64,000 nucleotides of DNA from Caulifigura coniformis. GTDB taxonomy: Bacteria > Planctomycetota > Planctomycetia > Planctomycetales > Planctomycetaceae. The stretch spans positions 3,980,314 through 4,044,313 of the forward strand of contig NZ_CP036271.1 in assembly GCF_007745175.1 (NCBI RefSeq), given 5' to 3'. Positions within the stretch are counted from its first letter, which is position 1; each line of letters opens with the position of its first letter. The position numbers and the translations under genes were made by a program. Under the pieces are notes generated by a model. It was not told where the DNA came from. It did no database searches and saw only the letters and a program-made list of their open reading frames with translations. Positions 17,957 through 23,226 of the stretch are shown in pieces.

Positions 17957-18184
17957 AGGTGGGGCCGAAAGGGCGTTGCAGCGGATACTTTAGTTGCCGC
18001 ACGGGACTTCATCCACAGGCTCGACAGGATGCCGGGGACTCCATCCTCTCCTCCCCCCGGGAGCGGCGAGGCGGGAGGGCAGGGATCACCTCATTTTCCC
18101 CTGACGGGACGGGGGACCGGTTGCATGCTCGTCGGCCTCCCCCTAAGACTGGATTCCCTCAAGTCACTTCCGGACTCCACGCTG

Positions 18185-18643
18185 ATGGCTCAATTCGAGA
18201 ACGAACTCTGGCTTCCCTGCGGCGTCGATGCCCTGTTCGAATTCCTCCTGCGCCCGGCAAACGTCCAGCGCATCAGCGATCCGCGCCTCGGACTCGTCTT
18301 CGAGCAGGCGCCGGACGTCGTCAACCCCGGCTGCATCATCGCCTTCAAGGTGCAGGCCTACGGCGTCGTCCAGAAGCTCGAGCACGAAATCACCGCTGTC
18401 GAGCGGCCGCGCCTGATCGTCGAAGAACAGATCAAGGGCCCCATGAAGGCTTGGCGGCACGAGCATCATTTCGAGGAGCATGATCAGGGCGTCAAGATGA
18501 CCGATCGCGTCATTTTCCAGCCCCCCGGCGGAATGCTCGGCTTCCTGGTCAAGGAATCGACGATTCTGGATGGACTCGAAGACGGATTCATCCATCGCGA
18601 ACAGGAGCTTCGACGGCTCGTCTCACAGGGCGAGATCACCTGA
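18185..18643 (+). CDS. SRPBCC (START/polyketide cyclase-like) protein
   Basis: 152 residues from the ATG at 18185; an in-frame extension to 18029 is low-quality sequence. The opening FENELWLPCGVDALFEFLL and the pattern HEITAVERPRLIVEEQIKGP, MTDRVIFQPPGG are typical of SRPBCC/CoxG-like helix-grip proteins, which bind small hydrophobic ligands or act as cyclases. The stop overlaps the start of the next gene as TGATG, so the two are co-translated. The ligand cannot be inferred. Confidence 0.85.
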   Translation: MAQFENELWLPCGVDALFEFLLRPANVQRISDPRLGLVFEQAPDVVNPGCIIAFKVQAYGVVQKLEHEITAVERPRLIVEEQIKGPMKAWRHEHHFEEHDQGVKMTDRVIFQPPGGMLGFLVKESTILDGLEDGFIHREQELRRLVSQGEIT

Positions 18644-18996
18644 TGGAACAGGACCGCGCCTCGCTGTCACGCCCGAGGCTGCCCCAACAGCGCGGGGGAC
18701 GCCCGACACAGAAAAGTGCGACATTCCTGGCGCTGGTCGGCCTGCTGACGGCTGGCCTCGGATTCGCCGTCCTGGTGACGGCCGTCCTGACCGGCTTTGC
18801 CCCTGCCGCAATCGCCGTCGTCCTTTTGATTATGGCGACCGTCGCATTTCTCTTCGGAGGCCACTACCTGCTCTGGGGCATCTGGCTGGATCGCAACCTC
18901 TCCTCGAGCGGACAGTCGCCGCCGGTCGAGTTCTGGAAGCGGGCGCCGCTCCCACCGATGCCTCCGGAGATCATGGACGAACCGACCGACGGCTGA
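18643..18996 (+). CDS. Small two-helix membrane protein, unknown function
   Basis: 117 residues with a basic, polar N-terminus and two transmembrane helices (about 25-50, LALVGLLTAGLGFAVLVTAV; and 52-80, AAIAVVLLIMATVAFLFGG). It ends in a short Pro-rich tail. Its ATG shares one base with the stop of the SRPBCC gene (TGATG), so expression is coupled. No named family recognised. Confidence 0.75.
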   Translation: MEQDRASLSRPRLPQQRGGRPTQKSATFLALVGLLTAGLGFAVLVTAVLTGFAPAAIAVVLLIMATVAFLFGGHYLLWGIWLDRNLSSSGQSPPVEFWKRAPLPPMPPEIMDEPTDG

Positions 18997-19254: not shown

Positions 19255-20379
19255 ATGCCGGACGCATACGCGTCGATGCTGCGTTATGCCGTCGGGAATG
19301 CCACGCCGATCCGCCTGTTGGTTCGCGAAGGGCAGGGGAAGCCGCGCGTCGTTGAAGTCGATTCTCCCTACTGCGTCATCGGACGCGCCCGCGATTGCGA
19401 AGTCGTCCTGACGGACGAAAAATGCGCCTTCCGGCACGGTTACCTGCAGGTGATCGGCGGCCGCCTCGCCTACATCGACCTCTTCTCCCCCACCGGCACA
19501 CACTGGGATGGCCCCCCCTTTCGCGGCTGGGTCAATGTCGCCCACCGCTTCCGCATCGGAGACACCTGGATTCAGGTCTTCGATGACGGCTGGACCGACG
19601 ATGACCTCAAGGCGCCGACCGAATTCCGACCGCGCCACGACTCTCGCCCCGAATACGGGGTGCTCCCCACGGTCGATCTGGAACTCCTCAACTCCTCCGC
19701 GCGGGGAGCCCAGTGGCCCATCAACCGCATTATCACCCTCGTCGGTCGGGATCAGCGCTGCCGCATCTGCTGCGCGGACGAACACATCTCGAAGGTCCAT
19801 TGCGCCTTCCTGCTGCTCCCCACTGGACTCTGGGTCATCGACCTCCTCGGAAAGACCGGCGTCAAGGTGGGCGGCGAACTCGTTCGCTCCTGCCTCATTG
19901 CGGCCGATGTCGAAATCGAGATCGGTCCTTACAAGATGAGGCCGACCTACCGCGTTGCCCAGCAGGCGGTCTTTGCTCCGCAGGTGGGACACGTCGGCGA
20001 TGCCGAGAAGGCGGAATTCCTCACCCGCCACAACCGGCTGTTCCTGGCCGAAGCGTATCTCGACACCCTCATCCTTTCGCCCGTCGGCAACCTGCCGCAC
20101 ATGAGCTACAAGGAGATTCACACCGAGAGCAGCCGGATTTCCGAACTGCAGTCCAATCACGGCTTCTCGAACTTCATCGTCGACTACAGCCACGCCCCCA
20201 TTCTCTCCTCGATGGTCTTCGATGCCATCATCGGCTTCTGCCGCGCAGCGACCGGCAAGGTGGCCATGTGTCACCTCTCCGAGGAAATCCGCGAAAGCGT
20301 CCGCAGCATGAACCTCGACCGCATCTGGCCCTGCGTCGAGTCGCGCGCCGAAGCGTTCTCACACGTCTACGCCCCGTGA
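19255..20379 (+). CDS. Tandem FHA-domain protein with C-terminal STAS-like domain
   Basis: 374 residues. FHA domain 1 spans about 18-110 (YCVIGRARDCEVVLTD, phosphate-contact Arg44, His61). FHA domain 2 spans about 138-235 (LVGRDQRCRICCADEHISKVHC, with Arg165, Ser179 and His182). Residues about 266-370 follow the STAS/anti-anti-sigma pattern (NFIVDYSHAPILSSMVFDA, then GKVAMCHLSEEIRESVR, MNLDRIW, ESRAEAF). FHA domains bind phosphothreonine peptides, so this looks like an adaptor linking Ser/Thr kinase output to a STAS-type partner switch. A second ATG at 19276 is possible. The GT4 gene starts 17 nt downstream, so the two probably form an operon. FHA calls are firm; the STAS call rests on pattern matching. 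Confidence 0.85.
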   Translation: MPDAYASMLRYAVGNATPIRLLVREGQGKPRVVEVDSPYCVIGRARDCEVVLTDEKCAFRHGYLQVIGGRLAYIDLFSPTGTHWDGPPFRGWVNVAHRFRIGDTWIQVFDDGWTDDDLKAPTEFRPRHDSRPEYGVLPTVDLELLNSSARGAQWPINRIITLVGRDQRCRICCADEHISKVHCAFLLLPTGLWVIDLLGKTGVKVGGELVRSCLIAADVEIEIGPYKMRPTYRVAQQAVFAPQVGHVGDAEKAEFLTRHNRLFLAEAYLDTLILSPVGNLPHMSYKEIHTESSRISELQSNHGFSNFIVDYSHAPILSSMVFDAIIGFCRAATGKVAMCHLSEEIRESVRSMNLDRIWPCVESRAEAFSHVYAP

Positions 20380-21553: not shown

Positions 21554-21915
21554 CACCCGCGGCCCGCCTTCTCGCTCGCCCGCCTCCGCTCTCGCCACGG
21601 CCGATCCTGCAGACGCCTTCCAGGCGAATCGCCGCCGGGCTTCCTCGCTTGCCCAGTCTCTCCGCTTCTCCAGCCCTCGTCGCCAGCGGCTCGGAAATTC
21701 CCTCAGATCCCGCACACTTTGACCGGATGGAACAACCCGCGCGGCCGATAACTCTCATACGACCGATTTTATCGGAACCGGTTCAGAATTTGCGCAGTCG
21801 GTCTGTGCTCGTTTGACCGGAGTTCGCACCGTCGGGCGGATGGATGCGTATGAGCAGTCACGAGCGGACAACTCGCACCCCACGTGGATTCCTCTCCGGA
21901 AAGGGAGCGTCCCTG
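21554..21915. promoter_or_regulatory. Upstream region of the outer-membrane barrel gene
   Basis: No gene is supported here. A small AT-richer hairpin, CCGAT/ATCGG with loop TTT, lies at 21763-21775, in a stretch (about 21740-21800) that is less GC-rich than its surroundings and may contain the promoter of the BBP7 gene. TTGACC at 21719-21724 is a possible -35, but the best nearby -10 candidate (GATAACT from 21747) is spaced too widely at 22 nt. Confidence 0.3.
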
Positions 21916-23226
21916 ATGGCGGTTTTCAGCGGCGCTGCCCGGCGGGCCTCTGCCTGCCTGACGGCCTTCGTCTGCATGACGCAAGGCGCGGCTTTTGCGC
22001 AGTACCCTAATCCCAATTACAGCTATCTCCCCTATCCGACGCCGCACCCTTACGCGCCGGCGCAGCCGCTACCGGCCCCCTGCGAACAGCCAGTCCCGAG
22101 ACTCGTCCCGGATGACGGATTCTTCTACGACAGCGATGCGCAGATCGACCTCGTGATCCGCGAGACGATTCGCGGCACCTACATGCGGCTCGAGTACCTC
22201 GGCTGGGATATCCAGGAACCCGGGAACAACCTGCTCGGAGTCAACATCGCCGGCGTCGCCAATCCGCGTGACCCCTTCCTTGTGCAGACCGCTTCCGGCA
22301 GCGTCGGAGTCGCCGAGTCGCTCAGCACCGACCGCGTCGACTTCCAGGAAATCAACGGCATCCGCGGCACCGTCGGCATCCCCTTCGAGTACGGAACTCT
22401 CGAAGGCAGCTTCTGGGGCCTCGCGGAAGGTTCCCACACCATCGAAGACCGTCCCTTCCTCCGGGACAACAGCGCCGTCAGTCCGCGATTCATCGCGATC
22501 GGCCTCATGACGAACGGACAGGTCGGTGACCGCGTCCTGCTCTTCGATCAGTCGTTCTCCGCCGACTACAGCGCCTCTGCGTGGGGCAGCGACGTCAACT
22601 TCCTCTACGCCGCCAAGAACCCCCGCCTCGGGCTCGGCTTCCAGCCCCTCGCCGGCTTCCGCTTCCTGAACTACGACGAATCGCTCTCGATGCGCGGCGT
22701 CTTCGACAACAGCTCGGGCGCTTACACCGATTTCGGCATCATCGCCGATCCCTACGAGTCCCGCATCCGATCGGAAGTCAACAACAACGTCTACGCCCTG
22801 CAGGTCGGCTTCAAGGCCGACTTCAAGCACCAGTTCTTCTCTCTGGCCTTCGAGCCCAAGCTCGCCTTCGGTGCCAACGACTACTCGACCCGCGTCACGA
22901 CGAACGATCTCCGGTCCTTCGACGATCCGACGCTCGATCCCGGGCCGAACGACATCGATGACCCCGCCACGAACTCCACCACCGGCCGCACCGTCTTCTC
23001 GCCGACGATCGACCTGGGCTTCTCCGCCAAGGTCCATCTCTCCGAGTGGTTCCACGTCCGGGCCGGCTACAACTTTATCTGGACCGGAAACCTCGCTCGG
23101 GCCGACCGCGCCATCAACTACAACGACATCAGCATCGCCGATCCGCCGGCCGTCACAGCCCGCCAGCGCACCGATTCCATCCTGATCCAGGGCTTCTCGA
23201 TCGGCGGCGAAATCATCCTGCCGTAA
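21916..23226 (+). CDS. BBP7-family outer-membrane beta-barrel protein
   Basis: 436 residues from the ATG at 21916, chosen because GGGAG lies about 10 nt upstream and a clean signal peptide follows (MAVFSGAARRASACLTAFVC to AAFAQ). An ATG at 21844 would add 24 charged residues. The mature protein has a Pro/Tyr-rich linker, then alternating-residue beta strands. GTYMRLEYLGWDIQ, GIPFEYGTLEGSFWGLA, NPRLGLGFQPLAGFRFLNYD and a final VRAGYNFIWTGNLARAD match the BBP7-like porin family of planctomycetes. Likely an abundant outer-membrane protein. A double hairpin follows the stop. Confidence 0.9.
   Translation: MAVFSGAARRASACLTAFVCMTQGAAFAQYPNPNYSYLPYPTPHPYAPAQPLPAPCEQPVPRLVPDDGFFYDSDAQIDLVIRETIRGTYMRLEYLGWDIQEPGNNLLGVNIAGVANPRDPFLVQTASGSVGVAESLSTDRVDFQEINGIRGTVGIPFEYGTLEGSFWGLAEGSHTIEDRPFLRDNSAVSPRFIAIGLMTNGQVGDRVLLFDQSFSADYSASAWGSDVNFLYAAKNPRLGLGFQPLAGFRFLNYDESLSMRGVFDNSSGAYTDFGIIADPYESRIRSEVNNNVYALQVGFKADFKHQFFSLAFEPKLAFGANDYSTRVTTNDLRSFDDPTLDPGPNDIDDPATNSTTGRTVFSPTIDLGFSAKVHLSEWFHVRAGYNFIWTGNLARADRAINYNDISIADPPAVTARQRTDSILIQGFSIGGEIILP

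Follow-up and report, generated by a model that had tools for sequence, protein, structure and literature searches.

A tandem-FHA and STAS fusion protein of one planctomycete family, often encoded beside a GT4 glycosyltransferase gene

FHA and STAS domains are widespread bacterial phospho-signaling modules, and a single gene in the 64,000-nucleotide stretch of Caulifigura coniformis DNA analyzed here (the window) seems to place both in one polypeptide. The original prediction described the product (P0001) as two FHA domains followed by a STAS domain, with a GT4 glycosyltransferase gene linked to it. The locus raises the question of whether this architecture is real and, if so, what signals such a protein might receive and what output it might control.

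Comparison of sequences and profiles makes the FHA-FHA-STAS architecture of P0001 secure (Table 1). In Pfam, PF16697 matches the protein in two stretches (2.2e-16), the best being residues 25-109, and PF00498 does the same (1.6e-14) with its best stretch at residues 162-224. The STAS model PF01740 aligns with residues 268-367 at an E value of 1e-4 with a score of 22.4 bits (cut-off 22.6); in a six-frame scan of the genome the stretch scores 25.5 bits, which is above the cut-off. A profile made from the C-terminal regions of the 20 known full-length orthologues finds STAS proteins for all of its first seven matches in the PDB, including 3t6o (1.1e-7), SpoIIAA (1th8; 2.7e-6), TM1081 (5e-6), and TM1442 (7e-5). 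Both FHA and PF01740 are matched by every one of these orthologues (20/20; E<=0.1), and an FHA profile of 17 of the 20 members matches the GarA, TB39.8, and OdhI chains. The C-terminal STAS assignment of the original prediction is borne out by these matches. AlphaFold models computed without an alignment are too poor for use (mean pLDDT of 33.2 for the whole protein and 43.1 for residues 246-374). The reading frame is under purifying selection. Over FHA1, FHA2, and STAS, the pairs G176/G172 and G175/G174 have dN/dS ratios of 0.02-0.11; the pair formed by the source genome (G000) and its congener (G001), in which dS is high, has ratios of 0.18-0.31, with 0.31 for STAS alone.

Table 1. Features of the fused gene and its downstream neighbor (window coordinates)
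Feature	Position	Strand	Basis
FHA-FHA-STAS protein P0001, 374 aa	19255..20379	+	ATG-to-stop ORF; translation
FHA1, residues 25-109; Arg44 kept, Ala58 in place of Ser	19327..19581	+	PF16697 stretch; residue counts; gapless GarA pairing (6i2q_B); codons
FHA2, about residues 145-230; Arg165 and Ser179 kept, Thr201 in place of Asn	19687..19944	+	PF00498 stretch 162-224; gapless GarA pairing (2kkl_A); bounds approximate, taken from the G001 orthologue
STAS domain, residues 253-372	20011..20370	+	PF01740 268-367; orthologue profile vs PDB
Thr257, F-x-T motif at the FHA2/STAS joint	20023..20025	+	Thr in 20/20 fused proteins, 9/33 FHA-less STAS
Ser319, aligned with SpoIIAA Ser58	20209..20211	+	Ser 10 / Thr 1 / His 9 in 20 members
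GT4 glycosyltransferase, 385 aa, 16 nt downstream of P0001	20396..21553	+	PF00534 1.8e-32; other GT4 models

The fused protein is confined to a small part of one family in the samples searched. When 170 genomes of the source family were searched with P0001 (at most 11 candidates scored per genome), 25 matched at E<=1e-30. Full-length FHA-FHA-STAS proteins account for 20 of these and fall in 9 of the 58 genera; the remainder are a fragment at a contig end (G169, left out of the counts) and four genomes that match over the FHA pair only (G004, G024, G167, and G168). The presence of the same domain order in further genomes of the source family is confirmed by alignment of the full-length members. 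In a phylum sample of 392 genomes (four candidates scored per genome), nine match over the full alignment at E<=1e-50. All nine belong to the source family, eight with the full-length protein and one (G004) with the FHA part only. In a class sample of 397 genomes the STAS profile matches 117 at E<=1e-14, ten of them outside the source family; four of these ten, among the matches listed, have open frames of 125-162 aa, which are too short for the fusion. FHA is present at 15 examined STAS loci of the class sample, all among the 20 known members. Neither the class nor the phylum sample, among the matches listed, shows an FHA-FHA-STAS fusion outside the source family. A Brevundimonas locus, the sole match in a scan of genome contigs (43% over residues 90-128, E 5e-5), was rejected as a short chance or distant match to the FHA region.

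The origin of the fusion can be approached through the STAS domain. In a tree of 58 STAS domains, the 20 fused domains form one clade with two FHA-less sequences (support 95/86), which come from the source genome (728447; L090:7358-7924) and G110 (L180), have Ala at position 319, and sit on long branches. The tree requires two changes in FHA fusion state, and this fits, but does not prove, one fusion followed by one loss of the FHA part. A tandem-FHA module and a STAS domain from a planctomycete subfamily were probably joined a single time. Proteins with this tandem-FHA module but other C-termini also occur (L008, L009-L013, L016-L018, and L022); the better matches have identities of about 27-39%, and L011, L012, L017, L018, and L022 have a recurrent C-terminal motif, read by eye, resembling W/F...LQ.ER..RW.KI..LL.

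The proposed input side of the protein would depend on the FHA pockets. The Asn of the Arg/Ser/Asn trio is part of the canonical FHA pocket, and gapless alignment with GarA chains places the trio at R44/A58/T80 in FHA1 and R165/S179/T201 in FHA2. In FHA1, Arg44 is found in all 20 members, Ser58 in 13 (Ala in P0001), and Asn80 in 6 (Thr in P0001). In FHA2, the corresponding counts are 18 for Arg165, 20 for Ser179, and 1 for Asn201 (Thr in P0001). By these residues the FHA1 pocket of P0001 is degenerate, and FHA2, the better preserved of the two, is the candidate for phosphopeptide binding. The idea of two phosphothreonine-reading modules thus stands only in part, in that both FHA domains are there but FHA1 of P0001 retains Arg44 alone of the trio and FHA2 is without the Asn.

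Loss of these pocket residues raises the possibility that the protein is purely a structural scaffold, its FHA and STAS domains no longer responding to phosphorylation. The degenerate FHA1, the absence of the FHA2 Asn from 19 of 20 members, and a His at position 319 of the STAS domain in 9 of 20 all point that way, but the near-constancy of Arg165 and Ser179 in FHA2 does not, nor does the restriction of position 319 to Ser, Thr, and His in the fused set, which looks like constraint and not drift. We consider a pure scaffold very improbable.

Phosphorylation could also act within the protein. Arg81 and Ser95 of GarA (Rv1827) contact the phosphothreonine pThr22, as given in PMC6151718, and the Arg and Ser of FHA2 pair with these contact residues. 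In a GarA/OdhI-type intramolecular switch, a Ser/Thr kinase would phosphorylate Thr257 at the FHA2/STAS joint, and FHA2 would fold back on it and hide or expose a surface of the STAS domain. Thr257 is invariant in the fused proteins and is Thr in only 9 of the 33 FHA-less STAS sequences compared, as such a role would have it. However, Phe255 is invariant too (20/20 fused vs 8/33 FHA-less), so Thr257 may be structural, and the canonical FHA2 Asn is missing in 19/20. The switch is accordingly rated improbable, if less so than the scaffold.

The STAS domain offers a further site for phosphorylation. In classical partner switching, the STAS domain would be an anti-anti-sigma factor, with an RsbW-type kinase adding phosphate to Ser319 and a SpoIIE-type phosphatase removing it, and the FHA domains would serve only to bring it to phosphorylated complexes. 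Either Ser318 or Ser319 had been put forward as the phosphorylatable residue. Position 319 pairs in the profile alignment with SpoIIAA Ser58, which is the phosphorylated serine (PMC3517971). Ser318 was rejected as a phospho-site since only 2 of the 20 members have Ser there (Gly 12, Asp 5, Ala 1). Ser319 is thus the better candidate but is not conserved, since the start of helix 2 holds Ser or Thr in 11 of the fused proteins (Ser 10, Thr 1) and His in the other nine. Among 38 FHA-less STAS sequences of the same subfamily (a selection of high-scoring or long-frame loci and not a complete survey, two duplicates having been left out), the position is Ser in 34, Ala in 2, Gly in 2, and His in none.

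The nine His319 proteins form one clade, both in the full-length tree (97/95) and in a STAS tree with FHA-less outgroups from which column 319 was removed (99/91). In the three His pairs tested, dN/dS of the STAS domain is 0.02, 0.06, and, in a pair with high dS, 0.18, suggesting that the His form is maintained and not decaying. Since nine of 20 members have His at 319, Ser phosphorylation cannot be a mechanism common to all of them. The split between Ser/Thr and His at the switch position offers a natural experiment for asking if a STAS domain requires phosphorylation.

The enzymes for partner switching are available in these bacteria. HATPase_c_2 (E<=1e-7) and SpoIIE (E<=1e-5) are found in all 20 genomes with the fused protein, including those with His, so that the His cannot be put down to missing kinases of this type. 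The source genome has 12 STAS stretches above the cut-off, an adjacent HATPase_c_2/STAS pair (6384084-6384970), and five SpoIIE matches above the cut-off. Two of the five lie in FHA-GAF-SpoIIE phosphatases (67523-68095, L099; 5871035-5871601, L101), so that this genome already couples FHA to partner-switching enzymes. The original prediction took FHA and STAS to belong to different signaling logics brought together here. The fusion is real, but the separateness of the two is weakened by these FHA-GAF-SpoIIE proteins and by the precedent of the anti-anti-sigma protein Rv0516c, which is phosphorylated by the Ser/Thr kinase PknD (PMC4601284).

The location of these enzymes speaks less for partner switching. 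No HATPase_c_2 or SpoIIE gene was found beside the fused gene, and same-contig matches are at least about 117 kb away (the nearest a SpoIIE in G110), although several of the fused genes sit on contigs shorter than 20 kb and, in the source genome, an open frame of 514 aa about 29 kb from the fused gene has a HATPase match below the cut-off. So far, the fused gene looks like an orphan of partner-switching partners. Together with the maintained His clade, this leaves classical partner switching an unlikely explanation, yet a likelier one than an intramolecular switch.

The output side of the protein is suggested by its neighbor. In 13 of the 20 genomes, representing seven of the nine genera (G000, G001, G012, G018, G085, G108, G109, G170, and G172-G176), the fused gene is followed directly by the GT4 gene in the same orientation, with gaps of -8 to +116 nt as placed by a simple gene caller whose start sites are approximate. 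The predicted conserved linkage is found in this majority. The GT4 gene is not adjacent to the fused gene in G005, G016, G091, G092, G093, and G110, and a GT4 match is absent from G090, a 72% complete genome. These seven genomes show that the pairing is not obligatory. The GT4 itself is nearly universal, with 151 of 170 family genomes matching at E<=1e-100, mostly without the fused protein. A set of 20 GT4 loci, drawn from 16 genomes that lack the fused protein and four in which the pair is split, yielded no FHA gene (GT4 was recognised in 19 of the loci). In one of these 20 loci (G007), an FHA-less STAS gene (L190:3110-3514) lies two genes upstream of GT4, with a TrkA-domain gene between them.

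Little else around the pair is shared between genera. When six genomes were compared over 18-20 kb (BLAST, E<=1e-5), only the P0001/GT4 pair (GT4 in four of the six) and two other pairs were common between genera; the other cross-genus matches have 25% identity (G018/G005) and 69% identity (G001/G016). The upstream window genes at 18029-18996 match only the congener among the six. Farther downstream, the window encodes a BBP7 beta-barrel porin-like protein (21844-23226; PF07585, 2.4e-22) of a family that we take to be planctomycetal. The notion that tandem-FHA proteins generally lie beside glycan genes was rejected: at 13 other loci, with the FHA-FHA gene in 11, glycan neighbors (O-antigen ligase, Glycos_transf_4, or GT4) were absent within three genes on each side, some of the loci ending at a contig edge. 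A tandem-FHA paralogue in the source genome (L092:6378-12366) does adjoin O-antigen ligase and Glycos_transf_4 (WecA-type) genes.

An envelope-related output, as originally proposed, may be inferred from the presence of the putative GT4 partner gene. The reading that we tentatively prefer, and hold to fall a little short of an even chance, is that the fused protein is an accessory regulator, found in one planctomycete family, that couples Ser/Thr-kinase signals to a core GT4 through docking of its STAS domain in a SypA-like manner. The fused gene would most likely be co-transcribed with GT4 and would act on GT4 output. A Ser/Thr kinase would phosphorylate a partner, or the fused protein itself, and FHA2 would dock on the resulting phosphothreonine. 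Docking could then alter the choice of a putative STAS binding partner, and glycan synthesis would be tuned post-translationally through an effect on GT4, as proposed for SypA, and not through a sigma factor. In the Ser/Thr319 lineages a phospho-switch at position 319 may provide a second, optional input; in the His lineage this input would be removed or altered.

Besides the conserved architecture and the GT4 linkage, three kinds of precedent speak for this GT4-tuning adaptor, namely SypA, a STAS-glycosyltransferase protein, and kinase action on a STAS protein, the last being that of PknD on Rv0516c. SypA, from the syp polysaccharide locus of Vibrio fischeri, is a STAS protein that controls biofilm formation, and the 2015 account describes antagonism of an anti-sigma factor by SypA as without evidence at that time (PMC4517449). 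The Anabaena protein all4160 is a fusion of STAS with a glycosyltransferase (PMC8256260). However, the SypA precedent for sigma-free action is not firm, as the same 2021 review states that SypA partners may include sigma factors and mentions transcription of biofilm genes (PMC8256260). The seven genomes lacking adjacency and the absence of a full canonical pocket from either FHA also count against the adaptor. A bolder version is a long shot. In it, the fused protein would control GT4 directly, the STAS site would have undergone a single change from Ser/Thr to His, since maintained, so that this lineage responds to phosphohistidine or is locked, the sister lineages would read phosphoserine, and Thr257 would be an internal ligand of FHA2. 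The occurrence of the fused gene beside one GT4 in seven genera provides a genetic handle on how kinase signals might reach planctomycete glycans.

A description of an FHA-STAS fusion was not found in the literature searched, which included the portions consulted of PMC7159879, PMC4601284, PMC2877116, PMC2887360, and PMC6151718 and covered subscription journals thinly. Several known proteins share a part of the architecture. Among them are the FHA-less STAS proteins of the planctomycete subfamily, which mostly have residues such as P276, E291, D310, G334, C339, W358, R364, and A367 in common with the fused proteins and whose best solved chain by profile is 3t6o. They differ in that FHA was not found in them, in that their switch position is never His in the 38 compared, and in that a hydrophobic stretch within a long tail is present in some. 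In L171-L177 and L179, which come from other genera of the same family, a strongly hydrophobic segment and then an extended tail come after the STAS domain, and these proteins look membrane-anchored. A 19-residue hydropathy mean of at least 1.87 is reached by 8 of the 11 long-tailed proteins, whereas L170, L178, and L184 are weaker. The planctomycete FHA-FHA proteins share the tandem FHA but end in a coil-like tail or, in L008 (G024), a kinase-like domain (both read by eye). The FHA-SpoIIE fusions, one of which has been noted in Sorangium (PMC2887360), likewise join FHA to a partner-switching component, but this component is a phosphatase and not a STAS domain, and in the source genome it is accompanied by a single FHA and a GAF domain.

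Other known systems resemble P0001 in part. GarA (Rv1827) and OdhI are comparable to FHA2 with its phosphothreonine-contacting Arg and Ser, but P0001 has two FHA domains and a STAS domain and is missing the usual Asn. SpoIIAA and RsbV share the STAS domain and, through SpoIIAA Ser58, the alignment of Ser319; they differ from the P0001 family, in which STAS is fused to a tandem FHA, a cognate gene was not found in the vicinity, and the site is not a conserved Ser/Thr. SypA is similar in being a STAS protein encoded with glycan genes, as the fused gene is where GT4 adjoins it. However, SypA consists of one STAS domain, is phosphorylated at Ser56, and is served by a dedicated regulator (SypE), whereas in the P0001 family STAS is combined with two FHA domains, neither a kinase nor a phosphatase gene was found in the vicinity, and nearly half of the members (9/20) carry His at the corresponding site.
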